A DNA stretch of 64,000 nt. It comes from Zoogloea sp. (GTDB taxonomy: Bacteria; Pseudomonadota; Gammaproteobacteria; Burkholderiales; Rhodocyclaceae). A program made the position numbers and the translations under genes. Shown here piece after piece: positions 9,153-29,089 of this stretch. Under the pieces are notes generated by a model that had not been told where the DNA came from, searched no databases, and worked only from the letters and a program-made list of their open reading frames with translations. Numbering within the stretch: position 1 is the stretch's first letter; the number at the start of each line of letters is the position of its first letter. The DNA is taken from positions 62,001 to 126,000 of the forward strand of contig NZ_JAKLLN010000004.1 of the NCBI RefSeq assembly GCF_023150065.1, given 5' to 3'.

Positions 9153-9179
9153 TTGTCGGTCCCCGTGATCGCGTAATAT
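9153..9179 (+). promoter_or_regulatory. Possible promoter of the plus-strand aryl-polyene arm
   Basis: TAATAT at 9174-9179 is a good -10 candidate. TTGTCG at 9153-9158 could be the -35, but the 15-base spacer is short. If real, transcription would begin near 9186, only a few bases before the first possible start codon of the PAP2 gene. The rest of 8976-9152 shows nothing else I can name. Confidence 0.3.
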
Positions 9180-9192
9180 AGGGCGCTGAAAA

Positions 9193-9984
9193 TTGTCGAT
9201 TCACGACGCGATCAACAGCCTGCCGACACTGCCCGGAGCGCGATCCTTGGAACCACACCCGCTGCCGCTCACCGAGTCGGCGACCCTTGCCGTCCCCGGA
9301 GCAGCCGACGCTCCGCCGCGGCCGCTCGCCCGGATCGGCGCGCGCCTGCGGCATTGGTGGTGGTTCAAGGGGCTCGGCACCAGCCTCTTCATGTATGTGT
9401 TCTTCCTGGCCTACCTGGAGCTGCTCCATCATCCGCTGAGGCCGGTGTTCGAAATGCCCCTGACCTGGGTGGATCGACAGGTGGGCTTTCAGCCCTGGGC
9501 CCTGGTGGTGTATGCCTCCCTGTGGGTTTACGTCTCCCTCCCGGCGGCGCTGGCACCGGGCTTCAAGCGTCTGTTCAGCCTCGGCTTGCACATGGCCTGC
9601 CTGTGCGGGGCGGGTTTGCTCTGTTATGTCTTCTGGCCCACGGCGGTGCCGCCGGCCGCGGTGGACTGGGGGCTGTATCCGGGCTATGCGCTGCTCAAGG
9701 GGATCGACCCGGGGGGCAATGCCTGTCCGTCCCTGCACGTGGCGGCGGCGCTCTATTCGGGGCTCTGGCTGGACCGCGAGCTGCGTGAGATGCAGTGTGG
9801 CCTGGCCTGGCACTGGGGTAACTGGCTGTGGAGCGGCCTGATTGTCTTTTCGACGCTGGCGACGAAGCAGCATGTCCTGCTGGACGTGCTTGCCGGCAGT
9901 GCCCTCGCCGCGGCGGCGGCGGCCCTCTCACCCGGCCTGTGGCGCAGCCGCAGCGGTGGCGGGAGGGGCGGGATTACGGTATAA
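9193..9984 (+). CDS. PAP2-family membrane phosphatase/phosphotransferase
   Basis: A 263-residue integral membrane protein with about six hydrophobic segments. Its C-terminal half carries PAP2 catalytic elements: CPSLHVAAALYSG (the PSxH box) and STLATKQHVLLDVLAG (the H-x4-D box). It resembles the inositolphosphotransferase-like PAP2_3 branch. PAP2 enzymes remove or exchange phosphates on lipids, so a lipid-phosphate step in building the polyene lipid anchor is a reasonable inference. Start is uncertain: the first codon is TTG at 9193, while TTG at 9247 has GGAG eight bases upstream and would give 245 residues. It heads the plus-strand arm of the locus. Confidence 0.8.
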   Translation: MSIHDAINSLPTLPGARSLEPHPLPLTESATLAVPGAADAPPRPLARIGARLRHWWWFKGLGTSLFMYVFFLAYLELLHHPLRPVFEMPLTWVDRQVGFQPWALVVYASLWVYVSLPAALAPGFKRLFSLGLHMACLCGAGLLCYVFWPTAVPPAAVDWGLYPGYALLKGIDPGGNACPSLHVAAALYSGLWLDRELREMQCGLAWHWGNWLWSGLIVFSTLATKQHVLLDVLAGSALAAAAAALSPGLWRSRSGGGRGGITV

Positions 9985-10022
9985 CCGCGCCGCCGTCCTG
10001 GCGCTGGATGCGAGGAAACGAA

Positions 10023-11375
10023 ATGGTTGAGCCTGCACTCAAGGAAGACCCGCGGCCTGCGATGAGCACCTGCGATGTACTGGTGATCGGCGGTGGTCCG
10101 GCGGGCAGCACCGTCGCGCCGCTGCTGGCCCGCAAGGGTTACAAGGTGGTCCTGCTCGAGAAGGCCCATCACCCGCGTTTCCACATTGGCGAATCCCTGC
10201 TGCCCGCCAACATGCCGCTGCTGGAGGCCCTGGGTGTGGCCGACGAGGTCAAGGCCATCGGCATGGAAAAATGGGGGGCGGAGTTCGTCTCCCCCTGGCA
10301 TGAGCAGGGCCAGGAGTTCCGCTTCGCGGACGCCTTCAACAAATCGCTGCCCATGGCCTACCAGGTCAAGCGCGCCGATTTCGACCATGTCCTGATCCGC
10401 AATGCCGCCCGCGAAGGGGTCGAGGTCATCGAGGGCTGCAAGGTGGGGGCGGTGGATTTTCAGTCGGACACGCAGGGCGCGGTGGTGAAGGCCACCCACG
10501 ATGACGGGCGGGAGCAGCGCTGGCAGGCGCGCTTCGTGGTCGATGCGTCGGGTCGCGACACCTTCCTGGCCAACCGTTTCCAGATCAAGCACCGCAATCC
10601 GCGCCACAACAGCTCGGCCATGTACGCCCACTTTGTCGGTGCCCGCCGCCATCAGGGCCAGGCGGAAGGCAACATCACCATCTTCTGGTTCGACCACGGC
10701 TGGTTCTGGTTCATCCCCCTCTCCGACGGGCTGACCAGCGTGGGTGCCACCGTGTGGCCCTATTACATGAAGACCCGCGCCGGGCGGAGCCTGACGCAGT
10801 TCCTGCTCGACACCATCGCCAGCTGCCCGGCCCTGGCGGAACGCCTCAAGGACGCGCAGATGGTGACCGAGGCGGAGGCCACCGGCAACTTCTCCTACGT
10901 GTCGGAACGCAACCACGGTTCCAACTACCTGATGCTCGGCGATGCCTTCGCCTTCATCGACCCGGTGTTCTCGTCCGGGGTGATGCTGGCCATGAACAGC
11001 GGCTTTGCCGGGGCCAAGGCGATCGACACCTGCCTGTCCCGCCCGGCCGGGGCCGCCGCGGCGCTGGCGGAGTTCGACCGGGCCATGCGGCATGGGCCGG
11101 AGGTTTTTTCCTGGTTCATCTACCGCATCACCAATCCCACCATGCGCGACATGTTCATGGCGCCACGCAACATCTTCCGGGTCCAGGAGGCGCTGCTCTC
11201 GGTGCTCGCCGGCGACATCTACGGCAGCACCCCGATCTGGCGTCCGCTGCGCATCTTCAAGGTCATCTACTACCTGTCCTTCCTGGGCAATCTGCGCCAG
11301 TCCCTCCGTGGCTGGCGCAACCGCCGGATCAACATCCGGCCGGTGGATGAAGCCGGCCTGGGGGCCGGCCAGTGA
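10023..11375 (+). CDS. FAD-dependent oxidoreductase, tryptophan-halogenase-like
   Basis: A 450-residue flavoprotein. The FAD-binding Rossmann motif is VIGGGPAGS (residues 21-29), followed by the FHIGESLLP segment shared with flavin-dependent halogenases. A WxWxIP motif is present as WFWFIP at 227-232; in halogenases this motif is associated with the halogenase rather than monooxygenase outcome. FLxGDAFxFIDPVFSSGV-like residues (LGDAFAFIDPVFSSG) form the second FAD contact. Flexirubin and xanthomonadin clusters often contain such an enzyme, and some xanthomonadins are brominated. The ATG at 10023 has GAGGA upstream. It overlaps the next gene by four bases. Halogenation versus hydroxylation cannot be told from sequence. 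Confidence 0.85.
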   Translation: MVEPALKEDPRPAMSTCDVLVIGGGPAGSTVAPLLARKGYKVVLLEKAHHPRFHIGESLLPANMPLLEALGVADEVKAIGMEKWGAEFVSPWHEQGQEFRFADAFNKSLPMAYQVKRADFDHVLIRNAAREGVEVIEGCKVGAVDFQSDTQGAVVKATHDDGREQRWQARFVVDASGRDTFLANRFQIKHRNPRHNSSAMYAHFVGARRHQGQAEGNITIFWFDHGWFWFIPLSDGLTSVGATVWPYYMKTRAGRSLTQFLLDTIASCPALAERLKDAQMVTEAEATGNFSYVSERNHGSNYLMLGDAFAFIDPVFSSGVMLAMNSGFAGAKAIDTCLSRPAGAAAALAEFDRAMRHGPEVFSWFIYRITNPTMRDMFMAPRNIFRVQEALLSVLAGDIYGSTPIWRPLRIFKVIYYLSFLGNLRQSLRGWRNRRINIRPVDEAGLGAGQ

Positions 11376-12394
11376 CGGGGATGCAGCATGATCTGCACCG
11401 CTTTCTTTCCGGTACCGTGCTTGCCGGCGGGCAGCTGGATCCGACCCTCCTCGGCCTGTCCTGGATAGGTCTGGCCGAGCCGACACACGTCCCCCAGGGG
11501 CTGCCGTGCCAGCAGCTCCATGCCCCCTGTCTGCTCGGTGAGCCCGTCGAGGCCTGGTTCGGGGCCGGACCGGCCGAGGCCGGTACCCGCCACGGTGTGC
11601 GTTACCGGCACGATGGCGAGCTGCTGTTCGGCGTCATCGAGGTTGCAGAGGACGCCGCCGCCGCGCTGGGCGGCGACAGCGGCCCGGTGCTGCAGCGGGC
11701 CGGCCGGCAGGCCTATGACGCCGTGTTCAGGCTCCTCGCCGAGGAGGGCTACTCCCACCTGTGGCGCATCTGGAACTACCTTCCCCGCATCAACGAGGAG
11801 ACCGACGGCCTCGAGCGTTACCGGCAGTTCAACATCGGGCGCCATCTGGCCTTCGAGGCGGCAGGGCGTCTGGTGATGGACAGCATCCCGGCGGCCAGCG
11901 CGCTGGGGGTGCAGGGCGGGCCGCTGAGCGTGGCTTTCCTGGCCGGGCGGGCGCCCACCCGCTCCATCGAGAATCCGCGTCAGCTCAGTGCCTTCCGCTA
12001 CCCGGCAGACTACGGCCCGTGCAGCCCGACCTTCTCGCGGGCGGCGCTCGGGCGGCATGCCGATACGGAGTGGCTGTTCGTGTCGGGGACGGCCAGCATC
12101 GTCGGGCACCAGAGCGTGCACCCCGGAGATCCGGTGGCCCAGACCCGGGAGATCGTCACCAACCTGGACGCCGTGCTGGCCGAGGCCAGCCGCTGCAGCG
12201 CCGGCCCGGCCTATCACCTGCCCGAGCTCAGCGCACGGGTCTATGTGCGCCACCCCGAGCATCTGGCCCCGGTGCAGGCCGAGCTGACCCGGGCCCTGGG
12301 GGCAGAGGCGCAGCTGGTCTACCTCCAGGCCGACGTCTGCCGTGCCGATCTGCTGGTCGAAGTCGAGGCCCAGGCCTGCCACCTATTGAGTTGA
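11372..12394 (+). CDS. Chorismatase of the XanB2/FkbO/Hyg5 family
   Basis: A 340-residue protein of the chorismatase (pteridine-dependent-dioxygenase-like) family. XanB2 splits chorismate into 3- and 4-hydroxybenzoate, and 3-hydroxybenzoate is the xanthomonadin starter. Family hallmarks visible are HLWRIWNYLPRINE, ERYRQFNIGRHLAF, FRYPADYGPCSPTFSRA, LFVSGTASIVGHQSVHPGD and the C-terminal CRADLLVEVE with the conserved acidic end. The N-terminal 110 residues are the less conserved non-catalytic domain. GTG at 11372 overlaps the previous stop; ATG at 11381 is an alternative. Its place in an aryl-polyene locus that lacks an ammonia lyase strongly suggests it provides the aromatic head group. Which isomer it makes is not decided here. 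Confidence 0.9.
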   Translation: MTGMQHDLHRFLSGTVLAGGQLDPTLLGLSWIGLAEPTHVPQGLPCQQLHAPCLLGEPVEAWFGAGPAEAGTRHGVRYRHDGELLFGVIEVAEDAAAALGGDSGPVLQRAGRQAYDAVFRLLAEEGYSHLWRIWNYLPRINEETDGLERYRQFNIGRHLAFEAAGRLVMDSIPAASALGVQGGPLSVAFLAGRAPTRSIENPRQLSAFRYPADYGPCSPTFSRAALGRHADTEWLFVSGTASIVGHQSVHPGDPVAQTREIVTNLDAVLAEASRCSAGPAYHLPELSARVYVRHPEHLAPVQAELTRALGAEAQLVYLQADVCRADLLVEVEAQACHLLS

Positions 12395-12401
12395 GTTTTT
12401 C

Positions 12402-13241
12402 ATGAGCGTGTTTTCATCTGCCTGCGTCGTGCTGGGGTGTGCGGCACTGCTGGCCAGTGGTGCTGCGGCCGCGGCCGACAAGCCCCTGTGGGAGGCCGGT
12501 GCCGGCCTGGGCGTGATGCACCTGCCGTCCTGGCGCGGCGCGGCGGAATCCCGCGAGCTGGTCCTGCCGGTACCGTATTTCATCTACCACGGGCGTTATC
12601 TGCGCGCCGACCGTCAGGGTGTGCGCGGCGTGCTCTTCGATTCCGACCGTGTAGACCTGGGCGTCAGTCTCGGAGCCTCGCCGCCGGTGAGCAAGGACAG
12701 CAGCAGCGCACGTGCGGGGATGGCCGAACTGGACGCCACCGTCGAGATCGGTCCGCAGCTCGATCTCACCCTGTGGCGCAGCCCGGACCGGGCCAGCCAG
12801 CTCAAGCTCATTCTCCCGGTGCGCAGCGCCTTTACCCTGAGCAGCAACCCGCAGCATGCTGGCTGGGTTTTTTCGCCCGCGCTCAACCTGGATCTGGTCG
12901 ACCCGCCCGGCCTGGCAGGCTGGCGTCTCGGCCTGCGCAGCGGCCCCATTTTTGCAACTCGCCGCCAGCACGCCTACTACTACCAGGTGAGCCCCGCCGA
13001 GGCCAGGCCGGACCGCCCGGCCTACACGGCCAGCGGTGGCTACAGTGGCACCCAGGTGCTGGCCTCGCTGTCGCGGCGCTATCCGCGTCACTGGGTGGGG
13101 GCCTTCGTCCGCTACGACATGCTGCAGCATGCTGCCTTCGACGACAGCCCGCTGGTGGCCCGTGATCACTATCTGGCCGCGGGTGTGGCGGTAGCGTGGA
13201 TTTTCGGTGAGTCGAGCGAGCGGGTGAATGTCGATGACTAG
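12402..13241 (+). CDS. MipA/OmpV family outer-membrane protein
   Basis: A 279-residue protein with a signal peptide ending in ASGAAAA before ADKPLWE. The mature part has the MipA/OmpV pattern: an opening WEAGAGLGVMHLPSWRG, then PVPYFIYHGRYLRADRQGVRG, alternating hydrophobic strands, and a C-terminal beta-strand (YLAAGVAVAWIFGESS). These are outer-membrane beta-barrels, some tied to murein enzymes. Placement between the chorismatase and the acyltransferase, with a 14-base overlap to the latter, ties it to the pigment operon. A role in receiving or anchoring the polyene in the outer membrane is inference. It begins seven bases after the chorismatase stop. Confidence 0.87.
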   Translation: MSVFSSACVVLGCAALLASGAAAAADKPLWEAGAGLGVMHLPSWRGAAESRELVLPVPYFIYHGRYLRADRQGVRGVLFDSDRVDLGVSLGASPPVSKDSSSARAGMAELDATVEIGPQLDLTLWRSPDRASQLKLILPVRSAFTLSSNPQHAGWVFSPALNLDLVDPPGLAGWRLGLRSGPIFATRRQHAYYYQVSPAEARPDRPAYTASGGYSGTQVLASLSRRYPRHWVGAFVRYDMLQHAAFDDSPLVARDHYLAAGVAVAWIFGESSERVNVDD

Positions 13242-14040
13242 CCCGCTGGCCCGTTGTGGCAAGCTGCTGTGGACCGCCTACGAATATGTCGCCATGGTGC
13301 TCGGGCTGGGGGCGCTGGCGCTGATCTGCATGGTGTGGCTGCCGTTTGCGCTGCTCCTCGGCGTGCTGCCGCGCCCCCTGGGGACCTTTGTCGGGCGGCT
13401 GGCCATCATGATCGGCTTTCGCCTGTACCTGCACTTCCTGAGCCTCTTCTGCGCCTGCAGCTTCGACCTGAAGGCGCTGGATGCCCTCCGCCGCCAGCCG
13501 TCCCTGGTGCTCGTGGCCAATCACCCCTCGCTGCTGGACGTGGTGCTCATCGCGTCACGTCTGCCGAACGCCGTGTGCATCATGAAGGCGGCGCTGATGG
13601 ACAACGTCCTCCTGGGGGCTGCGGCGCGCCTGGCCCGTTACATTCATAACGACAAACCCGTGCGGATGGTCCGGCGGGCGACCCGGGAGCTGCAGGCCGG
13701 CGCCCACCTGGTGATCTTTCCGGAGGGCTCGCGGACGTCTAATTTCCCTTTTGATGGCTGCACCAATGCGGCGGGCCTCATTGCCCGGCATGCGCAGACC
13801 CCCGTGCAGGCCCTGATCATCGATTTCAGCTCGCCTTACCTGGGCAAGGCCTGGCCCCTGTTCCGCAAGCCCGAGCTGCCCCTGCGCTTCAGCGTCCGGC
13901 TGGGGCGGCGTTTCGACCCGCCGGCGCGGGTGCTGGCCTTTACCGCCGAACTGGGCGACTACTACCGCAGCACCCTGGCCCAGCCCCCGGCTGCCAGCGC
14001 AGGCTCACCCCGCAGCACCGAAGAAAGCACGGCATCGTGA
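13228..14040 (+). CDS. PlsC-type 1-acyl-glycerol-phosphate acyltransferase-like protein
   Basis: A 270-residue lysophospholipid acyltransferase family member. The catalytic H-x4-D box is NHPSLLD (residues 98-104, H99 and D104), and the acceptor-binding FPEGSRT is at 164-170. One or two N-terminal hydrophobic segments (about 20-65) anchor it in the inner membrane. Acyltransferases of this type occur in aryl-polyene loci, where they are thought to attach the polyene acyl chain to a carrier lipid. It overlaps the MipA gene by 14 bases and the glycosyltransferase gene by four, so translation is probably coupled. It could instead serve ordinary phospholipid synthesis, but the context argues against that. 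Confidence 0.88.
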   Translation: MSMTSPLARCGKLLWTAYEYVAMVLGLGALALICMVWLPFALLLGVLPRPLGTFVGRLAIMIGFRLYLHFLSLFCACSFDLKALDALRRQPSLVLVANHPSLLDVVLIASRLPNAVCIMKAALMDNVLLGAAARLARYIHNDKPVRMVRRATRELQAGAHLVIFPEGSRTSNFPFDGCTNAAGLIARHAQTPVQALIIDFSSPYLGKAWPLFRKPELPLRFSVRLGRRFDPPARVLAFTAELGDYYRSTLAQPPAASAGSPRSTEESTAS

Positions 14041-14798
14041 TGCAAGCCTCCTCATCCCACCTGGTCATGATCCCCAGCTACAACCCCGGCCCGAAGGTCG
14101 ACGCCACCGTCCGGGAGGCGCGTGCCCAGTGGAATCCGGTGTGGGTGGTGATCGACGGCAGCACCGACGGCAGCACGGCGCGCCTGCGCGCCATGGCGGC
14201 CGCCGACCCCGGCCTGCGCATCATCGAATTGCCCGAGAACCGGGGCAAGGGCGCGGCGGTGCTGGAGGGGCTGCGGGCGGCGGCAGCGGCGGGTTTCACC
14301 CACGTGCTGACGATGGATTCCGACGGCCAGCACCCGGCCCACTGCATTCCCGAATTCATGCAGGTTTCCACGCGCAATCCGGGGTGCATGGTGCTGGGCA
14401 AGCCGGTGTTCGATTCGGCCGCACCCCAGCTGCGGGTGAAGGGGCGGGAGATCTCCAACTGGTGGGCCAACCTGGAAACCCTGTGGATGGGGATCGGCGA
14501 TTCGCTGTTCGGTTTTCGCGTCTATCCCATCGCACCGCTGGAGCGGATCATGGCCAGGCAGCGCTGGATGCGGCGCTTCGATTTCGACCCCGAGGCGGTG
14601 GTGCGCCTGGCCTGGGCAGGGGTGCGCCCGATCAACCTGCCCGCCCCGGTGCGCTACTTCCGCAGCGACGAGGGCGGGGTGTCGCACTTCCGTTATTTGC
14701 GCGACAACCGCCTGCTCACCTGGATGCATACCCGGCTGTTCATCGGCTTTCTGCTGCGCCTGCCGCGCCTCGTCGTGCGCCGCCTGCGCGAGGGGTGA
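14037..14798 (+). CDS. Family 2 glycosyltransferase
   Basis: A 253-residue GT-A fold enzyme. It opens with MIPSYNPG, has VVIDGSTDGST for nucleotide binding and the metal-binding DSD in LTMDSDGQHP. The C-terminal part has basic amphipathic stretches (LLRLPRLVVRRLREG) that may touch the membrane. It resembles dolichol-phosphate-mannose-synthase-type GT2 enzymes. In related aryl-polyene loci a GT and an acyltransferase are sometimes fused; here they are separate, adjacent and coupled (GTG at 14037, or ATG at 14040). The likely role is glycosylation of the polyene or its lipid carrier. Last gene of the plus-strand arm; it ends 18 bases from the convergent antiporter gene. Confidence 0.88.
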   Translation: MMQASSSHLVMIPSYNPGPKVDATVREARAQWNPVWVVIDGSTDGSTARLRAMAAADPGLRIIELPENRGKGAAVLEGLRAAAAAGFTHVLTMDSDGQHPAHCIPEFMQVSTRNPGCMVLGKPVFDSAAPQLRVKGREISNWWANLETLWMGIGDSLFGFRVYPIAPLERIMARQRWMRRFDFDPEAVVRLAWAGVRPINLPAPVRYFRSDEGGVSHFRYLRDNRLLTWMHTRLFIGFLLRLPRLVVRRLREG

Positions 14799-14816
14799 GC
14801 GCCCCGCCGGGCCGGG

Positions 14817-16103
14817 TCAGCGGATGGCCGGGCCCATGCGGGGCAGCCAGCGGCGCAGCCCCGGGGTGGTGACCACGGTGCTGACAATGGCCATCAGCAC
14901 CAGCATCGTGAACATGTCCTGGGAGATCACGCCCAGGTCGTAGCCGACGTTGATGACGATCAGCTCCATCAGGGCCCGGGTGTTCATCATGATGCCCAGC
15001 ACGCTGGATGCCGCATGGTCGAGCCCGCAGCTGCGGGCCGCCACATAGGTGCCGCCGAACTTGCCCAGGGTGGCCAGGGCAATGGTGAGCAGGCACCAGC
15101 CCCACAGCACCAGGCTGTCCAGCCCGCCGATGTTGGTGCGCAGCCCCGTGTAGGTGAAGAAGATGGGCAGAAAGAACACGGTCACGAAGTGGCCGATGCG
15201 TTCCTTCCAGGCTTCCACCAGCTCCGGCTCGTCGTGCACCAGCACTCCCATCACGAAGCCCCCGAAGATGGCGAAGATGCCCAGCTTGTAGGTGACCATC
15301 GCGCACAGGAAGATCGCTGCCAGCAGCAGCCCCATGAGGTGGGGCGAGAGGTGGCCGTGGTGGCGGGTGCGCCGTATCGTCCATTTCATCAGGGGCCGGA
15401 TGACGAACCAGGCCGCCAGCATGAACACCCCCACCAGCGCGACCTTCAGGCTGAAATCGGCCGGATCGAAATGGGACAGGGTCAGCGTGGTCACCAGGGC
15501 CAGCAGCAACCACCCCACCACGTCATTGACGGCGGCGGCGCTGATGGCGATGACGCCGATGGGGCGGCGGGTGAGCTCGAACTCGATCATGATCCGCCCG
15601 AGGATGGGGAGGGCGGTGATCGAAAAGGCCGTGGCGATGAACAGCCCGGAGGCGAGCCGGTTGGCCTGGGGCGACAGCACCGGAGCCGCCAGCCACCCGA
15701 AGCCCAGACCGAGGATGAAGGGCGCCACCAGCCCGGCGAAGGCCACACGGCGCACCGTCTTGCGATGCTGGCGTTCCGACAGGTGGGAGAAGTCGAACTC
15801 GATGCCGATCTGGAACATCAGCAGGATCAGGCCGATCTGGGAGAGAACCTGCATGGGCTCCGGCGGGCCGGAGCGGAAGACGTGGTCGAAGATGTCGGGG
15901 AACAGCAGCCCGAACAGCGAGGGCCCCAGCAGGATCCCGATGATGATCTCGCCGACCGCGGACGATTGCCCCACCCGGCGGGCGGCGATGCTGCCGATGC
16001 GGCCCGCCAGCACGATCACGCTGAGTTGCAGCAGGGCGAAGAAGAGGACGGCCTCCGCCTTGTGGACCGACACCTGGCCGGCCAGCTGGGGGGTGGTGCT
16101 CAT
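14817..16103 (-). CDS. Kef-type cation:proton antiporter (CPA2 family)
   Basis: A 428-residue membrane protein with about 12 hydrophobic segments. Family features are VGEIIIGILLGPSLFGLLFP, the FQIGIEFDFSHL segment and AAVNDVVGWLLLAL, in which the acidic ND pair of the CPA2 core is retained. There is no C-terminal RCK/TrkA-N domain, so it is shorter than KefB/C. ATG at 16103 has AGGAAAC upstream. It lies 90 bases downstream of the ketoreductase in the same direction, so it may be the last gene of the pigment operon or a hitchhiker. The exported ion is unknown. I know of no established role for such an antiporter in polyene synthesis. Confidence 0.88.
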   Translation of the reverse strand: MSTTPQLAGQVSVHKAEAVLFFALLQLSVIVLAGRIGSIAARRVGQSSAVGEIIIGILLGPSLFGLLFPDIFDHVFRSGPPEPMQVLSQIGLILLMFQIGIEFDFSHLSERQHRKTVRRVAFAGLVAPFILGLGFGWLAAPVLSPQANRLASGLFIATAFSITALPILGRIMIEFELTRRPIGVIAISAAAVNDVVGWLLLALVTTLTLSHFDPADFSLKVALVGVFMLAAWFVIRPLMKWTIRRTRHHGHLSPHLMGLLLAAIFLCAMVTYKLGIFAIFGGFVMGVLVHDEPELVEAWKERIGHFVTVFFLPIFFTYTGLRTNIGGLDSLVLWGWCLLTIALATLGKFGGTYVAARSCGLDHAASSVLGIMMNTRALMELIVINVGYDLGVISQDMFTMLVLMAIVSTVVTTPGLRRWLPRMGPAIR

Positions 16104-16193
16104 GCAGGTTTCCTGTTCTTGTGTGCCATGCCGGGCCCGGAATGCCTGGGATGGGCGGGATTGCGTGGTGGCCCGATGGCGGCGTGCGCCATC

Positions 16194-19337: not shown

Positions 19338-19416
19338 GGTGCAGTCTTTTCGGGCGGTGACGGGAGTCTACCAGAGGGGCCCGCAGACCGATCCATCCCG
19401 TGTCATGACGCTGGCG

Positions 19417-20912: not shown

Positions 20913-20996
20913 CTCAGTGGCTCCACCGTGCGTGGCGCGACCCACGCTGCATGAGGCGGGGGCAGCGAACACAGTGAGCGTGGGGGCCGTTTCATC

Positions 20997-23327
20997 TCAG
21001 CGGTCGATCCGGTGCGCCAGCATGGCGGAGAGGACCAGGGTGAGCACCGCGCCAGGGCCGACGGTGATGCCGATTGCCTGCAGCACCGGCACGGGCGAGA
21101 GGGCCAGGATGCCGAAGCCGATCACCGTCGCCAGGTTGGCGAGGAGCAGGGAGGCCAGCGTGCGGGGGTCGTCGCCCGGGTTGCGGTCGGCCTGATTGAA
21201 GAACAGGGCGTAGTTGGTGCCCACGGCGACGATCAGCAGCATGCCCACCAGGTGCAGCAGGGTCAGCATGTGGCCGGTGGCGACGAGGCCGGCCATGACG
21301 ATCAGCTCGGCGGTGACCACCGGGACCATCACCCGCACCAGGCGCATGGGCTCCCGCAGCACCACGCCCATCAGCACGATGATGGCGAGAATGCCGGCCA
21401 GGGACAGCAGGATGGCTTCGTCCAGGTAGGTCCGGTAGAGGTTGTTGGATTCGCCGAAGATGTCGACGAAGAGGGCATCGCTGCCGTCCAGGGCGGCCTC
21501 CAGCCGCGCGCGCTGGAAGGGGGCGTCGCCGTCCGGGGTGCGCAGGGGGATCAGCACGGTCCAGCCCTGCGGGCGTTCGAGCAGCAGGGAGTCGACGGCC
21601 AGGGCCAGGGTGGAGCCGCGCAGGGCTTCGGGGGTGAGGAGGGGCTGGCTGCGGGCGGTGTCCACATCATCCAGGAAGGCGCTCAGGCGGTCTGCGCGGA
21701 GGGGCAGGTCGGCCAGGGCGGTTTGCAGGTTGCGGGCGAGGACGTCCCGTTCCGGCAGGGCATTGCGCCGGGCTTGCTGGGTCGCGGTGCTGGGCAGGAA
21801 GCGTGCGGGGCTCTCGAAGCCGGCGAGCACCCCCTCCGCCACCAGCCCCCTGAGGCGCTCTCCGACGGCCTCGGCACGCTCCAGGGCGGCTTCACGGCTG
21901 GCGGCCTTGAGAACCACCAGGTAGCGCAGATTGGGGGCCCCGAGGTCGGCGCGCAGGCTCTGGTCGAGGGCCTGGTCTGCGGCGGAGACGGGGCTGAGGC
22001 CCGACAGGCTGCTGCTCCACACGTGGTCCTTGTTGGCAAACAGGATGACGGCGGCGGCCAGCCCCAGGACGGGTACCACCAGGCGCAGCCGGGACAGCCA
22101 GGCCCAGAAGCCTGCCAGGGCCCGGCCGATGGGGGCGATGTCATGGATGTGCAGCCTGGCGGGGCGCAGGTGCGGCAGCACGAAGCGCGTCACCATGGCC
22201 GCGGTGACGAGCCCGGCGATGGAATACAGGCCGAGCTGGGCGAGGCCGGGAAAACCGGAAAACAGCAGGGATGCGAAGCCGAAGATGGAGGTGAGCACGC
22301 CGAGCCGGATGGTCGGCCAGAAGCGTTTCATCCAGCCACCGTCCTCGTCGTCGTCGGACTGCACGAAGTAATAGATGGAGTAATCGACGGCCTCGCCGAT
22401 CAGGGTTGTGCCGAAGCCGATGGTGAGCCCGTGCACGGTGCCGAAGCCCAGGGCCACGGCGGCGATGCCGGCGAGGGCGCCGCTGGCCACCGGCAGCAGG
22501 CCGAGAAAGACGGCGGTGAAGGAGCGGTAGATGAGCAGCAGCAGCAGGATCACCGCGGTGGTGCCCAGGGTGCTCAGCCGCACCGCCTCGGATTCGATGG
22601 CGGCACGGGAATTGACCGCAAAGACCGCGGCGCCGGACACCAGCATGCGGGCGTCGCTCAGCTTTGCCTCGCTGGCGAGGTCCGCGAAGTCGCTGCGGAT
22701 CCGGGCGATGGCGAGGGCCTGGGCGTCGGTATCGGAGCCCGCGGCGCGGGTCTGCAGCATCAGGATGGCCCGCTGCCCGTCCCGGGACACCCACACGCCC
22801 TTGTCGCTGGAGGGGCTGCCGCTGGTGTCGAGGCTGCCGATCAGTTCGACCAGCTCGCCGGTGGGGTCGCGGCCCAGCAGGCTCTTGAGCATCATCCCCA
22901 TGGGCGAGGCGAGGAGGTCGATGCTCTCGCTGATGGCCGCGTGAAGCCCTTCGGGGGTGAAGCGCTCGGGGCTGACCGATGGGCTGAGAAGGTAGCGGTG
23001 GGTGAACAGCAGCTCCCGGTCGCGGGCCAGAATGGCCGCGTCGCCGTTGCGGACGGAGAGGAACAGCCCCCCGTCCTCCAGGCGCCTGGCCAGGCCGCGG
23101 GAGAGTTCGGCGCGGGCCGCCGGGGTGCTGCCCTCGATGCCCACCAGCAGCAGCCGCGACAGCACGCCCTCGGTGAGCTGGTCCACCAGCAGCTGCTGGG
23201 CGGGCGTGGGGCTGCGCGGCAGGAAGGCCGACATGTCGGCGGTGTAGTGGGCGCGCAGGGCCACGCCGGCGCACAGGGCCAGGCCAAGCAGCCAGAGCAG
23301 GACGGGGCGGGCGGAAAGGCGTGTCAT
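20997..23327 (-). CDS. MMPL/RND-family exporter (ApeM-type)
   Basis: A 776-residue RND-superfamily transporter. The arrangement is typical: TM1, a large periplasmic domain (about residues 30-230), TM2-6 (VRLSTLGTTAVILLLLLIYRSF onward), a second periplasmic domain, and TM8-12. The segment GTTLIGEAVDYSIYYFVQSDDDEDG contains the membrane-embedded D-Y pair of MMPL proteins, and the second half has the related VGTNYALFFNQ. Members in aryl-polyene and xanthomonadin clusters are thought to move the polyene lipid towards the outer membrane. It overlaps the LolA-like gene by four bases. Confidence 0.9.
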   Translation of the reverse strand: MTRLSARPVLLWLLGLALCAGVALRAHYTADMSAFLPRSPTPAQQLLVDQLTEGVLSRLLLVGIEGSTPAARAELSRGLARRLEDGGLFLSVRNGDAAILARDRELLFTHRYLLSPSVSPERFTPEGLHAAISESIDLLASPMGMMLKSLLGRDPTGELVELIGSLDTSGSPSSDKGVWVSRDGQRAILMLQTRAAGSDTDAQALAIARIRSDFADLASEAKLSDARMLVSGAAVFAVNSRAAIESEAVRLSTLGTTAVILLLLLIYRSFTAVFLGLLPVASGALAGIAAVALGFGTVHGLTIGFGTTLIGEAVDYSIYYFVQSDDDEDGGWMKRFWPTIRLGVLTSIFGFASLLFSGFPGLAQLGLYSIAGLVTAAMVTRFVLPHLRPARLHIHDIAPIGRALAGFWAWLSRLRLVVPVLGLAAAVILFANKDHVWSSSLSGLSPVSAADQALDQSLRADLGAPNLRYLVVLKAASREAALERAEAVGERLRGLVAEGVLAGFESPARFLPSTATQQARRNALPERDVLARNLQTALADLPLRADRLSAFLDDVDTARSQPLLTPEALRGSTLALAVDSLLLERPQGWTVLIPLRTPDGDAPFQRARLEAALDGSDALFVDIFGESNNLYRTYLDEAILLSLAGILAIIVLMGVVLREPMRLVRVMVPVVTAELIVMAGLVATGHMLTLLHLVGMLLIVAVGTNYALFFNQADRNPGDDPRTLASLLLANLATVIGFGILALSPVPVLQAIGITVGPGAVLTLVLSAMLAHRIDR

Positions 23328-23896
23328 CGCGCGTCCACGGGCTCGATGGACATGACCGAGCGGTCTCCGTCGGCCTGCAGGTATTCGATGCTGCGGACCT
23401 GCTGGCGGCTGCCGCTGATGGTGATGCGGGTGACCAGCTCGGCGATGCGCGGGTTGCTCGGGGAGAGGTTGAGGGTCCAGTTATCCCGCTGGCCCGATAG
23501 GTGCAGGGCGTAGTTCTGCTCCAGCGCGGCGCGATTGCCCGACAGGGTGCCGCGGATGCTGGCCACGAAGGCCAGGACTTCCGGCTGTTCGCGCAGGCGC
23601 AGGGTGATCTTCTGCTTGCCCCGTTCCAGGCTGATCTCGTCCTTGTCGAGCACCATGAGCTCAAGGCGCGGCGAGAGGGTGCGCTTTTCGAGGTAGTCCG
23701 GGGCACGGTAGTGCATCTCCCCCGACGAGACGACCGGCTTGTCGAGCAGGGCGATGTACTTGCGCTCGGTGAACAGGGCCCGGCCGCCCTGGTTGCGGGC
23801 CAGTTCGGTCATGAGCTGGGGCAGGTCCCAGGCGGCGAAGGCCGGCATGGCGGCAAGCGTCAGGAGGCAGGCGGCGAGGCGGAGAGCGAACGTCAT
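23324..23896 (-). CDS. LolA-like outer-membrane lipoprotein carrier (ApeL-type)
   Basis: A 190-residue periplasmic protein with a signal peptide (MTFALRLAACLLTLAAMPAFA, cleaved before AWDLP). The mature part fits the LolA half-barrel: LPQLMTELARNQGGRALFTERKYI, then the MHYRAPDYLEKRTLSPR stretch and repeated short strands. LolA-like proteins in aryl-polyene clusters are proposed to carry the lipid-linked product through the periplasm. It lies between the LpxL-like acyltransferase and the MMPL exporter with four-base overlaps at both ends. It is unlikely to be the housekeeping lolA because of this context. Confidence 0.87.
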   Translation of the reverse strand: MTFALRLAACLLTLAAMPAFAAWDLPQLMTELARNQGGRALFTERKYIALLDKPVVSSGEMHYRAPDYLEKRTLSPRLELMVLDKDEISLERGKQKITLRLREQPEVLAFVASIRGTLSGNRAALEQNYALHLSGQRDNWTLNLSPSNPRIAELVTRITISGSRQQVRSIEYLQADGDRSVMSIEPVDAR

Positions 23897-24840
23897 GGGG
23901 CGGGGCGGTCGGATCGGGAGCGGGGGTCGCTCCAGAAATCGAAGAAATTGAACCAGTTATAGGGCGCCTGGCGGCAGTGGCTTTCGAGCAGTGCGGCGTA
24001 GGCCTCCTGGGCCCGGGCGATGGCGGCGGCGCGCTCGCGGGGCTCCACGCCGGTGAAGTCGGCGAGGGGGGAGAGCTCCACCCGGTAGCGCCTGCCGCCC
24101 TGCCAGGTGCCGCTCATGAAGAGCACGGGCCGCTGCAGGAGCGCGGCGAGGCGGAAGGGGCCGTTCGGAAAGGGGGCCGGGCTGCCCAGGAATGGTAGGT
24201 TGCGGACGCCGCTCTCGCCGGGGTTGCGGTCGGCGAGCACACCGACCAGCTGCCCGCCATCGAGCCTGTCGCGCAGCTGCAGCATGGAGTCGAGCTGGCC
24301 AAGGGGGAGGATGTCCTGGCTGGCTTCGGGGTTGATCGCGGCCAGCACCTGGTTGATCTTGCGGGCGTTTTCGGCGTGCATGAGCATGCACACCCGCTGG
24401 GTGGCATGCCGGTGGCCGACGGCGCGGAGGACCTCGAAGCTGCCCAGGTGGGCGCCGAAGAGGAGGGTGCCGCGGCCGGTGCTCATGTGCGCTTCCACGT
24501 GCTCGAGGCCGTGCACCTCGACGTCGAACAGATCGAAGCGGCCGTTCAGGAAGTAGATGCGGTCGTGGATGCTGGTGGCGAAGGTGAGGATGTGGCGGTA
24601 ACGCTCGGCCAGCGTGGGCGGGCGCCCGAGAATGCGCTGCAGATAGGCCCGGGAGGCCCGCCCGGCCTTCGGGGAGAAGAGCAGGAAGTAGGCCGCGATG
24701 CCGTGCAACACCATGCGGCTGAGCTGGCGCCCCAGGGTGAGGGACAGCCACACCATGAAGCGCATCACCGGAACGCTGCTGCGTTCCGCCTGGCGTGCCC
24801 AGGCCGCGCCGGCCGCGGGAGGCGGGGGCGGACGGCTCAC
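23893..24840 (-). CDS. LpxL/HtrB-like lysophospholipid acyltransferase
   Basis: A 315-residue acyltransferase. FGAHLGSFEVLRAVG contains the H-x4-E catalytic box of the LpxL/HtrB branch, and ADRNPGES-like and LPFLGSPAPFPNGPFRLA segments match later conserved regions. An N-terminal hydrophobic stretch (about residues 27-55) anchors it to the inner membrane. It may transfer an aryl-polyene or fatty acyl group to a lipid carrier. The start is GTG, overlapping the ligase stop as GTGA; the N-terminus is proline-rich and variable. The locus thus has two acyltransferases of different subtypes. Confidence 0.87.
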   Translation of the reverse strand: MSRPPPPPAAGAAWARQAERSSVPVMRFMVWLSLTLGRQLSRMVLHGIAAYFLLFSPKAGRASRAYLQRILGRPPTLAERYRHILTFATSIHDRIYFLNGRFDLFDVEVHGLEHVEAHMSTGRGTLLFGAHLGSFEVLRAVGHRHATQRVCMLMHAENARKINQVLAAINPEASQDILPLGQLDSMLQLRDRLDGGQLVGVLADRNPGESGVRNLPFLGSPAPFPNGPFRLAALLQRPVLFMSGTWQGGRRYRVELSPLADFTGVEPRERAAAIARAQEAYAALLESHCRQAPYNWFNFFDFWSDPRSRSDRPAP

Positions 24841-26480
24841 GTCGGCTGCCCGAGGGTGAGGCTGCCGGAGGCGATGATCCGATCGCCCGCGCGCACCTCG
24901 AAGGCCAGGGCCCTGGCCCTGGCGCTGGCGGGGGCGTAATCAAAGACGAGGGGGGTGCCCGGGCCCACGGGCTCGAAGAACTTGGTGTTGCCCAGGCCGC
25001 GGATGGTGCTGCCTGCCGGCAGCAGCCCGTCGGCCAGCTGGATGGCCTGGTCGATCAGCACCACGCCGGGCAGGATCGGCCGGCCGGGGAAATGCCCGGG
25101 AAACGCGGGGTGCGCGGCGGGCACCTGCCAGTGGCGTTCCCGCGCGCTGGCGGGTGCCGCGGCGCCGGGCAGCAGGGCCAGCAGGTCGGCGCGGGGCAGC
25201 TTGCTGGCGGCGTTGCGGGGCAGGCGCTCGACGAACACCAGTGGGCGCGGCAGGAAGGCCGTATCGATGCGGCTGCGCAGGGCAGCAAGCAGGCTCTGGC
25301 GGGTGTGCCCGGGGGCCACCACGCAGGCGCACAGGCGCGTGGCGTGGTCGTCGGGCTCGGCGTCGGGCATGAAGAACACGCCGTCGCTCACACCGGGAAC
25401 CTCCAGGAGTTGCTGGTTGAGATAGCCGAGGGAGGTGCGTTTGCCGGCGATATTGACCTGGTCGGCATTGCGGCCGTGGAGCAGGAAGTGGCGCTCGTCC
25501 ACGAGCTCGATCACGTCGCTGATCGCTACCGTGCCTTCGACATGCCCACCCCGGGCCGCATGGCCGCTTTCGGTGGCGCAGAGGGTCACTTCACCGAGGA
25601 GCTGCCAGGCGCGGGTCTGGGTGGAGCGGCGGCTGGCCAGCTGGCCGGTCTCGGTGCAGCCGTAGATCTCCAGCAGGGGGGCGCTGCAGGCGGCCTCGGC
25701 GCGGGCGGCGAGATCCTCGGAGAGGGGGGCGGTAGCCGACAGCAGGAAGTCCACCGGCGGCAGCGCCAGGCCGGCCTCCAGCAGGGTGCGCAGATGGAAG
25801 GGGGTGGTGACGAGGGCGCGGGGGGCCGGAACGGCGTCGAGGGCCGCACCGATGTCCGCCGGGTAGAAGGGGCGCCCGGACCAGCATGCTGCGCCACCGT
25901 GCAGGCAGATGAGCACGGTGGATTCGAAGCCGTACATGTGCTGCGGCGGCACCGTGCCGACCAGGGCGCAGCCGCGGGCGCCGAGGCGCTCGGACTCGGA
26001 CAGGGCGTTGATCACCAGGCCGCCCCAGGTCTTGCGATGGATCAGGGCCGCGCCGGTGGAGCCAGAGGTGAACACGTGGGCGACGATCTGCTCCGCGGGG
26101 ATCTCCGGCACCGCCAGGATGTCCTCGGCGGGGGCGTGCCCGGCCGGGAAGGGCACACCCGGCAGATCGATGTCCTCGAGGCTTGCGTCGTGCAGGCAGA
26201 ACACGTCCGGGGTGTCGTGTCGCAGGCGGGCGACGGTGTTCGGCGTCAGGCTGGAGGGCAGCAGGCTGATCTTGCCACGGACGATGGCGGCCGCCAGACC
26301 GACCAGGAAGTGGTAGCGGTTGTGGCAGATGTTGAGCACATGCCGCCCGTCGGGCAGGCGTTCGGCGAGCTGGTGTACGTCAGCGAGAAACTGGTTGCGC
26401 GTGACCGGGCCGGCGGGCTGCCAGGCGATGATGCTGTCGGGGGCGGGGAGGTCGGTCAGCGGACAGGAGGCTTGCCTCAT
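24837..26480 (-). CDS. Fused AMP-dependent ligase and FabA/FabZ-like dehydratase (ApeH-ApeI type)
   Basis: A 547-residue two-domain protein. Residues 1-440 or so are an ANL-family acyl-AMP ligase, with FTSGSTGAAL (about 137-146), the EIYGCTETGQLA motif and VNIAGKRTSLGYLNQQL near the C-terminal subdomain. Residues about 450-547 are a hotdog dehydratase with HPAFPGHFPGRPILPGV. The ligase would activate the aromatic starter and load it on an ACP, and the dehydratase would form double bonds. In the E. coli-type cluster these are described as separate genes (apeH and apeI). ATG at 26478-26480 overlaps the preceding stop by one base. Confidence 0.9.
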   Translation of the reverse strand: MRQASCPLTDLPAPDSIIAWQPAGPVTRNQFLADVHQLAERLPDGRHVLNICHNRYHFLVGLAAAIVRGKISLLPSSLTPNTVARLRHDTPDVFCLHDASLEDIDLPGVPFPAGHAPAEDILAVPEIPAEQIVAHVFTSGSTGAALIHRKTWGGLVINALSESERLGARGCALVGTVPPQHMYGFESTVLICLHGGAACWSGRPFYPADIGAALDAVPAPRALVTTPFHLRTLLEAGLALPPVDFLLSATAPLSEDLAARAEAACSAPLLEIYGCTETGQLASRRSTQTRAWQLLGEVTLCATESGHAARGGHVEGTVAISDVIELVDERHFLLHGRNADQVNIAGKRTSLGYLNQQLLEVPGVSDGVFFMPDAEPDDHATRLCACVVAPGHTRQSLLAALRSRIDTAFLPRPLVFVERLPRNAASKLPRADLLALLPGAAAPASARERHWQVPAAHPAFPGHFPGRPILPGVVLIDQAIQLADGLLPAGSTIRGLGNTKFFEPVGPGTPLVFDYAPASARARALAFEVRAGDRIIASGSLTLGQPT

Positions 26481-27166
26481 CAGGAGATCCGGGGGGGCAG
26501 GTCGGGGTCGGTGAGCGGTGGCGGGGGCGTTCGGCTGGCGGTCATGTAGGCCTTCACCGAGGCGATGATCCCGTGGCGTTCTTCCGGCGGCAGGCGCTTG
26601 CGTCGCACCAGCCCTTCAACGATGAACATGAGCGCCAGGGAGGGCAGATAGAACAGGTTGGTGAAGGCCGACCACAGGGCGGTCGATGCGAACAGGTAGA
26701 GGAGCATCGAGGTGCCGGCACTGGCGAGGAAGAACACGGTCCAGGCGACGGTGACCTGGCGTGTGTAGCGGATGACCGTGGGGCTCGGCGACGGGTGCAG
26801 GACCATGGCGAAGGTGGTGCACGCCGGGGTACGGCCACCCGTCAGGCTGTGACCGAAGTAGCTGGCCAGGGCCAGGTTGGTGCCCAGATACTGGAGCAGG
26901 TAGAGGTGGGTCAGGTTGTCCCGCACCAGGGGCCACAGCAGCAGGGCGCCGCCGACGCTGGCGAGGCCGCCCAGCAGCGCGGCCGTCAGGCCAAGACGCC
27001 GGTACAGCAGATTGATGAGCAGGGCGGCCGCAGGCAGAGCGGTGAGCAGGGCCACCCAGGTGGCTGCATCCGGGTCGCTGCTGACGTAGTGGGCCAGTGC
27101 GTCGTAGGCAAGAACCGCGCTTCCCGCCAGCAGGCCGGTCACGAGGGGGCCGGGCTGTCCCGTCAT
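26480..27166 (-). CDS. COG4648-type membrane protein of aryl-polyene loci
   Basis: A 228-residue integral membrane protein with about six hydrophobic segments and a basic, proline-rich C-terminus (SRTPPPPLTDPDLPPR). It resembles the COG4648 membrane proteins that recur in aryl-polyene clusters, sometimes annotated simply as ketosynthase because of location. No catalytic motif is evident. Its position between the ACP and the ligase, with overlaps at both ends, suggests it is needed for membrane assembly of the synthase. Function not established. Confidence 0.72.
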   Translation of the reverse strand: MTGQPGPLVTGLLAGSAVLAYDALAHYVSSDPDAATWVALLTALPAAALLINLLYRRLGLTAALLGGLASVGGALLLWPLVRDNLTHLYLLQYLGTNLALASYFGHSLTGGRTPACTTFAMVLHPSPSPTVIRYTRQVTVAWTVFFLASAGTSMLLYLFASTALWSAFTNLFYLPSLALMFIVEGLVRRKRLPPEERHGIIASVKAYMTASRTPPPPLTDPDLPPRIS

Positions 27167-27456
27167 GCGGCCCTGGAGGCGGCGACGTAGTCCGCGAGGC
27201 TACGCAGGGAGCGGAAGATGTGCGTGTTGTCCTCGTCGTCGGCGCGCAGCTGGATGCCGTACTGCTTGGAGATGACGAGGGCGACTTCGAGGATGTCGAT
27301 GGAGTCCAGCCCGAGGCCTTCGCCGAACAGGGAGTCGTCGGGATCGATCTCGGACGGGGACATCTCGAGATTGAGGGCGGAGACGATGATGCCGGCGATT
27401 TCGGCAACAAAGGCGGGCGTGGCGCCCGGCGTGTTCTCTTGAGGCGTGGTGCTCAT
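27163..27456 (-). CDS. Acyl carrier protein (longer N-terminus)
   Basis: A 97-residue acyl carrier protein. The phosphopantetheine attachment serine is S52 in GLGLDSIDILE. The N-terminal 18 residues (STTPQENTPGATPAF) are an extension not seen in housekeeping AcpP. The C-terminus is short. Aryl-polyene loci carry two ACPs; this one is 54 bases downstream of the ketosynthase gene and overlaps the COG4648 gene by four bases. Confidence 0.93.
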   Translation of the reverse strand: MSTTPQENTPGATPAFVAEIAGIIVSALNLEMSPSEIDPDDSLFGEGLGLDSIDILEVALVISKQYGIQLRADDEDNTHIFRSLRSLADYVAASRAA

Positions 27457-27510
27457 GGTGTGGAGTGCGCTTGCAAACGGAAAATCGTGAAGAAGATGCC
27501 GGGCCGATGC

Positions 27511-28764
27511 TCAGGCCGGAGCGGCCTTGCGGAAGGCCAGCACGGCATTGCATCCGCCAAAGGCGAAGGAGTTGGACAGGGCAACCCGTGCGTCCGTCCC
27601 CCGCAGTGCGCTGCCGGTGATGTGGCGCACGCCTTCGCAGGCGGGGTCGATGGCGTCCAGGTGGGCGGTGGGGGGCAGCGCATCTTCGGCCAGGGCCAGT
27701 ACCGTGGTCACGGCCTCGATGGCACCGGCGGCACCCATCAGGTGGCCGTGCATGGATTTGGTGGCGCTGACGGGAACCTGGGCCGCCCGGTCGCCGAACA
27801 GGGCGCGCAGGCTGTCCACCTCGATGGCGTCGCCTTCGACGGTGGCGGTGCCGTGGGCGTTGACGTAATCGACATCGTCGGGGGTGAGGCCGGCGTCATC
27901 CAGGGCGAGGCGCATGGCGCGGATCTGGCCGTCCCGGTCGGGGCGGACGAGGTGGGAGTGATCGCTGCAGGTGCCGTAGCCCACGACTTCGGCGAGGATG
28001 GTGGCGCCGCGCGCCCGGGCATGCTCCCACTCCTCGAGGATCAGGGTGGCCGCGCCTTCGCCGAGGACCAGCCCGCTGCGGCCGGGGTGGAAGGGGCGGC
28101 AGCTGGCGGGGGCGGTGTCGGCGTCGCCCTGGGCGACCACGCGCAGGGCGTCCCAGGCTTTCATGACGGCGTAGGCCAGGGGCACATCGGAGCCGCCGGT
28201 CACCATCAGGCGGGCCTCGCCATTGCGGATGCGCTTGTAACCTTCACCGATGGCTGCCGCGGCGGAGGCACAGGCGGCCACGTAGGTGAGGCTGGAATTG
28301 CCCAGCCCGAGCTGGATCGAGATATGGGAGGCGGCGGCGTTGCTCATGCCGAGCACCACGGCCAGGGGCGGCAGGCGGTCGCGCCCGTTCTGCCACATTT
28401 CCCGGTAACCCCGCTCCCAGGTGCTCGTGCTGCCGAGGGCCGACCCCCAGGACACCCCGTAGTCGTGCCGGCCTTCCTTGTCGCGGCTCAGGCCGGCGTC
28501 CAGCCAGGCTTCAAAGCAGGCCGTCAGGGCCATCTGGACGGAACGGTCGGTGGTGCTGGCCAGGGCTTTGCCGATGTGGGCCTCAGGGCTGAAATCGGCG
28601 CAGTGAATGGCGGGCTGGGTGACCGGGCGGGGGGGCTGGTCGATGGTGTGCAGCCGGATGAAGGATTCACCGTCCACCAGACGGCCGAACATCTGCCGCG
28701 CGTCGATGCCCGAAGGGGCAACCACGCCAAGGCCCGTCACGGCTACGCGGTGGGGGCTTGCCAT
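27511..28764 (-). CDS. Beta-ketoacyl-ACP synthase, FabF-like (ApeR-type)
   Basis: A 417-residue ketosynthase. The triad is C165 in TYVAACASAAAAIGEG, H304 in NAHGTATVEGD and H341 in SATKSMHGHLMGAAGAIE. Ending ALSNSFAFGGCNAVLAF is standard. This is the second complete condensing enzyme of the locus, in addition to the one at 18144-19337, and could handle a different step, such as first condensation on the aryl starter. It starts three bases after the first ACP stop, so the two are surely co-transcribed. Confidence 0.93.
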   Translation of the reverse strand: MASPHRVAVTGLGVVAPSGIDARQMFGRLVDGESFIRLHTIDQPPRPVTQPAIHCADFSPEAHIGKALASTTDRSVQMALTACFEAWLDAGLSRDKEGRHDYGVSWGSALGSTSTWERGYREMWQNGRDRLPPLAVVLGMSNAAASHISIQLGLGNSSLTYVAACASAAAAIGEGYKRIRNGEARLMVTGGSDVPLAYAVMKAWDALRVVAQGDADTAPASCRPFHPGRSGLVLGEGAATLILEEWEHARARGATILAEVVGYGTCSDHSHLVRPDRDGQIRAMRLALDDAGLTPDDVDYVNAHGTATVEGDAIEVDSLRALFGDRAAQVPVSATKSMHGHLMGAAGAIEAVTTVLALAEDALPPTAHLDAIDPACEGVRHITGSALRGTDARVALSNSFAFGGCNAVLAFRKAAPA

Positions 28765-28767
28765 GCT

Positions 28768-29019
28768 TCAGGCCTGCTTGGCTTTTTGGGCTTCGACGAC
28801 GAACTCGTCGACGATGCTGACGAGTTCGCCGATGTTCTTCGGCGAGCGCACATCCCGCTCGAACACCACGTTGTACTTTTCCTCGCATTCGAAGATCAGT
28901 TCGACCAGCATCAGGGAGTCGATCTGGAGTTCTTCCAGGGTCGCTTCCGGTTGGATTCTCGCGGGGTCGATTTCAAGACGATCGACGAGGAATTCACGGA
29001 TGACGGTCAGAGTGTCCAT
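28768..29019 (-). CDS. Acyl carrier protein (first gene of the polyene operon)
   Basis: An 83-residue phosphopantetheine carrier. The attachment serine is S35 in ELQIDSLMLVELIFECEEKYN, a form common among aryl-polyene ACPs. ATG at 29017-29019 gives the usual ACP length; a TTG 14 codons earlier extends the frame but adds residues with no match to the fold. No clear Shine-Dalgarno sequence precedes the ATG. It is the promoter-proximal gene of the long minus-strand operon. Confidence 0.92.
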   Translation of the reverse strand: MDTLTVIREFLVDRLEIDPARIQPEATLEELQIDSLMLVELIFECEEKYNVVFERDVRSPKNIGELVSIVDEFVVEAQKAKQA

Positions 29020-29089
29020 GGCAGATAGTGGCTTCGGAATGAAATGGACATCCCGGGTCAAGCGTGCCGGGGATGTGGTTTTACCCCCG

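Follow-up and report, generated by a model that had tools for sequence, protein, structure and literature searches.

The genome analysed here, from a Zoogloea species, comprises 5.25 Mb in 251 contigs, and the window is a stretch of 64,000 nucleotides (nt) within it (contig C196, positions 62001–126000). Genes were called from the GC content by codon position together with domain scans. The window contains a pigment locus extending from 9193 to about 29061, in which an arm of genes on the + strand faces an arm on the − strand. The arms converge, the + arm ending at 14798 and the − arm at 14817, with 18 nt between them. We assign the locus with good confidence as a xanthomonadin/arcuflavin-type aryl-polyene island. 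An earlier reading of the sequence (the original prediction) had described a xanthomonadin-type aryl-polyene locus in two convergent arms at 9193–29019. Both the arms and the type are borne out, the latter by a ketosynthase and chain-length factor of the ApeO/ApeC type, by a chorismatase and by the family matches. The start at 9193 stands, while the other end moves to 29061, where the last open reading frame (ORF) for an acyl carrier protein (ACP) ends.

Starting at 9193, the + arm opens with a PAP2 phosphatase-like protein (9193–9984; PF14378, 39 bits, cut-off 27), homologues of which occur in six other Zoogloea clusters taken as long stretches (L116, L117, L118, L119, L108 and L109). It continues with a halogenase-like protein dependent on flavin adenine dinucleotide (FAD) and resembling ArcA (9828–11375, the start probably being 10017 or 10059; PF04820, 121 bits, cut-off 21), and then with an ArcB/XanB2-like chorismatase, a predicted 3-hydroxybenzoate former (11372–12394; PF21168, 136 bits, cut-off 27). 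After an ArcC-like outer membrane protein of the MipA family (12402–13241; PF06629, 139 bits, cut-off 24) and an ArcD-like phospholipid/glycerol acyltransferase (13228–14040; PF01553, 50 bits), the arm terminates with an ArcE-like family 2 glycosyltransferase (14037–14798; PF00535, 70 bits).

The − arm descends from 29061. Its first gene encodes ACP b (28768–29061; PF00550, 35 bits), followed by a FabF-like ketosynthase, KS1 (27511–28764; TIGR03150, 388 bits, below the cut-off of 494), and the ArcV-like ACP a (27163–27456; NF006617, 126 bits, cut-off 70). The next gene encodes a membrane protein in the ArcU/ApeG position (26480–27166) that matches no family over its cut-off; homologues lie at the same place in five other Zoogloea clusters. 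There follow an AMP-ligase with a C-terminal ApeI/FabA-like dehydratase domain, equivalent to ArcT plus ArcS (24837–26480; PF00501, 57 bits; FabA, 24 bits, cut-off 23), an ArcR/ApeJ-like acyltransferase of the lipid A (LipA) type (23893–24840; PF03279, 52 bits), an ArcQ/ApeL-like LolA-like periplasmic carrier (23324–23896; PF19574, LolA_3, 78 bits) and an ArcP/ApeM-like MMPL/RND exporter (20997–23327; PF03176, 33 bits, cut-off 20.5). The arm passes through an ArcN-like polysaccharide deacetylase family protein (20130–20972; PF01522, 84 bits) and an ArcM-like S-adenosylmethionine methyltransferase (19417–20139; PF08242, 46 bits) into a block of four polyketide genes. These encode the ArcK/ApeO-like ketosynthase KS2 (18144–19337; NF006618 (PRK09185), 513 bits, cut-off 407), the ArcJ/ApeC-like chain-length factor (CLF; 17341–18147; PF13723, 86 bits, cut-off 25), an ArcI/ApeP-like stand-alone dehydratase (16910–17347) and an ArcH/ApeQ-like 3-ketoacyl-ACP reductase (16194–16913; NF004200, 364 bits, cut-off 273, scanned as the longer ORF 16194–17273). 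The last gene encodes an ArcG-like CPA2 cation:proton antiporter (14817–16103; PF00999, 188 bits). Every enzyme named in the original prediction was thus found by family scans, its list having omitted the halogenase-like protein and the glycosyltransferase. Scans of the whole window for tRNA and Rfam families gave no matches; promoter-like sites numbered 0 against 1.1 expected and terminator-like sites 11 against 5.1, and these scans are uninformative. The GC content of the − arm (window 16001–28000) is 0.705–0.717, higher than the 0.644–0.671 found further right in the window, beyond 40 kb.

The polyketide core points to the class of product. The ketosynthases were assigned from model scores and the ranking of PDB chains. 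For KS2 the top chains are 7f28_B (265 bits) and 6qsp_A (247 bits), the next best reaching 172, and the CLF, which has only the N-terminal half of a ketosynthase, matches just two chains, 6qsp_B and 7f28_A. These entries are described as the ApeO–ApeC proteins of Xenorhabdus doucetiae (6QSP) and Acinetobacter baumannii (7F28) (PMC8358021). The locus therefore holds a ketosynthase with a truncated CLF partner of ApeO/ApeC type, together with an aryl-acid AMP-ligase, ACP, ketoreductase and dehydratases, the set that marks an aryl-polyene cluster. Such clusters are reported normally to carry a second ketosynthase (PMC8358021). KS1 is closer to FabF (PDB 5sxo, 291 bits) than to ApeR (7f27, 216 bits), and a better FabF (638 bits) is encoded on contig C174 of the same genome. 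Besides the window, L116, L117 and L119 have KS1; it was not found in the stretches L118 and L108, and so looks dispensable. The original prediction would have been overturned by ketosynthases of ordinary FabB/FabF lineage; KS1 is FabF-like, while KS2 and the CLF rank ApeO/ApeC structures first.

As a single sequence the stand-alone dehydratase gives a weak ApeP-like match (E = 0.039), and 15 of the 24 members of its homologue profile match the Pfam ApeP-like family at E up to 1; the 24-homologue profile itself finds 6qsr_B with E = 1e-7. The other dehydratase domain shares one open frame with the ligase here and in L116 (G004), one of 15 other loci tested; in the remaining 14 the two are in different frames or split by a stop. 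The fusion is a small local variation.

As the original prediction had noted, neither a thioesterase nor an ammonia-lyase is visible. No thioesterase family was found among the 20 cluster ORFs scanned. Deletion of apeK is reported to cut pigment just partly (PMC8253772), so an ApeK-type thioesterase is not strictly required. A search for DUF3261 (ApeN) found no match in the genome, and none in any of 14 control genomes either, so that the protein's absence is not established. In 7 of 16 loci (L028, L054, L062, L064, L073, L084 and L100) a gap of 610–737 nt between the deacetylase and the exporter contains an ORF of about 193–226 aa, which is alpha/beta-hydrolase-like in both of the two loci scanned. 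Lying at the position of Azoarcus arcO, it could be ArcO and a candidate release or ester hydrolase. For those relatives, though not for Zoogloea, this might answer the question of the missing thioesterase; in the window there is no room for such an ORF between deacetylase and exporter.

The chorismatase is likely a XanB2-type enzyme, judged by its family match (PF21168), which places the cluster in the xanthomonadin/arcuflavin subtype. Its closest PDB matches are 5ag3 (E = 3e-50) and FkbO (4bps, 9e-41). Residues G239, C323 and E330 correspond to the Gly, Cys and catalytic Glu described as characteristic of 3-hydroxybenzoate-forming (Hyg5-type) chorismatases (PMC7170507); FkbO has Ala at the positions aligned to G239 and C323. 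A177 stands where both the Hyg5-type enzymes and FkbO carry Gly, and hence this is not a textbook Hyg5-type enzyme. All four residues are invariant in alignment A2, which comprises ten chorismatases (L015 being left out) and no XanB2 sequence. The original prediction had implied that the chorismatase start is an anomaly. It is none: xanthomonadin and arcuflavin are both described as starting from 3-hydroxybenzoate provided by a chorismatase of XanB2 type (PMC3949708, PMC3691225), and by itself the enzyme is no surprise.

The halogenase-like protein finds named halogenases as its best PDB chains (8zop and 3e1t). It contains GWFWFIPL, which fits the WxWxIP motif of halogenases. Azoarcus arcuflavin is not brominated.

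A possible second source of an aromatic starter exists in the genome. UbiC is encoded in the window at 47373–47927, within 20 kb of the island, although it scores 76.5 bits on the chorismate lyase model, under the cut-off of 191; UbiC was found in all 23 Zoogloea genomes. Xanthomonas XanB2 is described as also supplying 4-hydroxybenzoate for ubiquinone (PMC3949708); the chorismatase is not needed for that here, since the genome has its own UbiC. The product might then be an E. coli-type polyene started from UbiC 4-hydroxybenzoate, in which case the chorismatase would have a role in signalling or in something else. The universal presence of UbiC would allow this, as would two Zoogloea genomes (G002 and G012) that hold core genes and no detectable chorismatase. 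We consider it improbable, however. Third in the + arm, the chorismatase gene is flanked by those for the halogenase-like protein and MipA, just as Azoarcus arcB lies between arcA and arcC, and the Azoarcus pigment is reported to take up labelled 3-hydroxybenzoate, not 4-hydroxybenzoate analogues (PMC3949708).

The closest published counterpart is the arcuflavin system of Azoarcus BH72, whose genes lie in two unlinked loci (PMC3949708). As annotated there, the first contains arcA (halogenase), arcB (chorismatase), arcC (MltA-interacting protein), arcD (acyltransferase), arcE (glycosyltransferase), arcG (antiporter), arcH (reductase), arcI (dehydratase) and arcJ/arcK (ketosynthase parts); the second contains arcM (methyltransferase), arcN (deacetylase), arcP (exporter), arcQ (LolA), arcR (acyltransferase), arcS (dehydratase), arcT (ligase), arcU (unknown) and arcV (ACP). 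The Zoogloea gene list matches arcA–arcE, arcG–arcK, arcM, arcN and arcP–arcV, and the two Azoarcus loci joined end to end give the Zoogloea gene order. In Azoarcus, insertions in arcK and arcT are reported to abolish the yellow pigment and give colourless mutants, and ArcB makes 3-hydroxybenzoate (PMC3949708). Set against that published gene list, the present locus differs in being single, in the fusion of ligase and dehydratase, in showing no counterpart of ArcO, ArcF or ArcL, and in including PAP2, KS1 and a second ACP (PMC3949708). The MipA, deacetylase and antiporter genes, which the original prediction had listed as extras, correspond to arcC, arcN and arcG (PMC3949708). The idea that these and the chorismatase are departures was rejected, as all are published genes of arc/xanthomonadin type.

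More distant systems share the core. The xanthomonadin cluster of Xanthomonas and the Lysobacter enzymogenes OH11 cluster are described with a chorismatase (XanB2/ORF5), a ketosynthase with an unusual CLF, ketoreductase, two dehydratases, ACP, LolA-like carrier and exporters; the published L. enzymogenes cluster lists no halogenase gene, unlike that here (PMC3691225). The APE-Ec cluster of E. coli CFT073 likewise has the ApeO/ApeC pair, a second ketosynthase, two ACPs, ligase, dehydratases, ketoreductase, methyltransferase, acyltransferases, LolA-like protein and RND exporter (PMC8253772). It uses 4-hydroxybenzoate and has the ApeK thioesterase and ApeN (DUF3261), neither of which is seen in the locus here, while its gene table contains no chorismatase, halogenase, MipA, deacetylase or antiporter, all present here (PMC8253772).

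Elsewhere in the genome lies a dialkylresorcinol (dar) locus (contig C111, 62001–82000; L107 of G000). It extends from 7211 to 14748 in the Azoarcus gene order, and encodes a DarB-family ketosynthase (NF005293, 548 bits, cut-off 450), DarH (454 bits, cut-off 300), a pair of ATP-binding cassette (ABC) transporter proteins, an ACP and a ketosynthase. An O-methyltransferase gene then follows (stretch 7211–15772 of L107). From its position and its flavodoxin-like start, the gene before DarB would be DarA. Being on another contig, the dar locus was beyond the reach of the original prediction. The Azoarcus genome is described with the same arrangement, an unlinked dar locus encoding DarB, a BtrH-like protein, ABC transporter, ACP and ketosynthase (PMC3949708), and arcuflavin consists of a polyene derived from 3-hydroxybenzoate and linked to a dialkylresorcinol (PMC3949708). 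The presence of the dar locus in the same genome, as in Azoarcus, makes an arcuflavin-type polyene–dialkylresorcinol ester the probable product, as far as gene content can indicate.

The polyene might instead be a plain xanthomonadin-like one, esterified to a lipid like those of Xanthomonas or E. coli; the dar locus would then make a separate resorcinol product. We regard this as the less probable outcome, though a realistic one. Being on contig C111, the dar locus is not linked to the island, and six of the nine exporter-bearing Zoogloea genomes lack DarB, so that their polyene synthesis has to be capable of proceeding without it. Yet the Azoarcus arc and dar pathways are also unlinked and their products are nevertheless joined in arcuflavin (PMC3949708). 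In the flexirubins of Bacteroidota, too, aryl polyene and dialkylresorcinol are coupled, and the ketoreductase (275 bits) and LolA-like protein (51 bits, LolA2) give scores on flexirubin models. These are below the curated cut-offs of 340 and 125, and flexirubin clusters are reported to begin with a tyrosine ammonia-lyase rather than a chorismatase (PMC3992019). No ammonia-lyase family was found in the locus ORFs scanned, the whole genome not having been searched for tyrosine ammonia-lyase, and a chorismatase is present. A flexirubin-type cluster starting from tyrosine is thus very improbable.

Several observations weigh against the assignment as an arcuflavin-type system. The chorismatase scores 233 bits on TIGR04444, below the curated cut-off of 325; DarB reaches 445 bits on a narrower DarB model, below its cut-off of 550; the DarA candidate, beyond its flavodoxin-like N-terminus, matches no family; and the correspondence with the arc genes is one of published annotation, rather than of direct comparison with Azoarcus protein sequences. 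DarB occurs at 98% identity or more in three of the 23 Zoogloea genomes (G000, G001 and G004), the rest giving FabH-level matches or none. All three also have the chorismatase and the exporter, but they are close relatives, so that the co-occurrence is perhaps one event. Since the six exporter-bearing genomes without DarB (including G002, which is 77% complete) have nothing beyond FabH-level matches, the pairing of the two loci is not obligatory. Among 49 chorismatase-positive genomes, drawn from the first 50 of the best 80 chorismatase loci with one locus left out, 14 have DarB at E up to 1e-20 (one being the Zoogloea of L022) and 35 do not. Recent transfer of the dar locus was suggested by the 98% identity of DarB in the three Zoogloea genomes against 85–92% for the chorismatase; this idea was dropped because the DNA identities are alike (90–92% for the dar stretch, 90–91% for the pigment cluster).

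The wider distribution was examined by searching named genomes with an alignment of ten chorismatases, the best 80 loci from at least 586 relatives being analysed, many of them cut by contig ends. The halogenase-like gene directly precedes the chorismatase in 57 of the 80, and in 45 the stretch also contains one or more of KS2, CLF, MMPL and ligase. The convergent layout (chorismatase and glycosyltransferase on the + strand, then ketoreductase and CLF on the − strand) is found in 33, three of which are from Zoogloea (L023, L024 and L070), and in 24 of the 45 loci of at least 20 kb. In others (e.g. L025, L031, L044 and L048) only the chorismatase was seen; it therefore also occurs apart from the rest of the cluster.

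Within Zoogloea the cluster forms an island of some 20 kb. Of the 23 genomes, nine have the exporter at an identity of at least 75% (three more giving only weak matches at 22–24%) and seven have the chorismatase. The island is flanked by an oxidoreductase gene (5400–9011) and a gene for an Lnb-type protein (29173–31083), and alignment places its breakpoints near 9106 and 29174. The spacing of the flanking genes was obtained in 14 of the 23 genomes: they are 71–148 bp apart in eight (G005, G006, G007, G009, G010, G012, G013 and G022), 17–20 kb apart in five (G000, G004, G011, G017 and G018), and 3.1 kb apart in G003. In G002 (L109) the halogenase-like gene runs straight into MipA and the chorismatase was not detected. 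In G012 (100% complete; L108) the cluster lies at the opposite flank of the Lnb gene, and chorismatase, halogenase, MipA, antiporter and methyltransferase were not found in its 20-kb stretch. These two of the nine exporter-bearing genomes may start from 4-hydroxybenzoate. There are also signs of decay. The halogenase-like gene of G018 is reduced to a stub (L118, near 16217–16351), and the exporter of G017 is split into two frames (L119, 12438–14865), where an assembly error is possible.

On this gene content the pathway would begin with the conversion of chorismate to 3-hydroxybenzoate by the chorismatase, which the AMP-ligase would load onto ACP. The KS2:CLF pair, with help from KS1, would add malonyl units, and the ketoreductase and the two dehydratase domains would turn each two-carbon unit into a double bond. 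The methyltransferase would O-methylate the ring, while coupling of the acid to a carrier and its transport to the outer membrane would fall to the acyltransferases, the LolA-like carrier and the MMPL protein. Esterification of the polyene acid to a dialkylresorcinol would yield an arcuflavin-like pigment, offering protection from light and oxidative damage. That the pigment here is a halogenated arcuflavin, with homologous machinery in G002 and G012 making a 4-hydroxybenzoate-derived polyene (a switch of starter within the genus), is a speculative extension that we think unlikely.

The cluster, predicted to make a yellow membrane pigment of a sort known from Azoarcus and Xanthomonas, is largely ordinary, and most of the novelty claimed by the original prediction has been published before; what this analysis chiefly adds is the dar locus, the chromosomal site of the island and the variants without a chorismatase. 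A search of the literature on Zoogloea with aryl polyene or xanthomonadin, within the library used, found no report of such a cluster. The arcuflavin/xanthomonadin pigment type is extended to this genus of sludge bacteria. With the island present, absent or altered by gene loss at a single chromosomal site, the genus offers a natural comparison of 3-hydroxybenzoate-started with possible 4-hydroxybenzoate-started polyenes.

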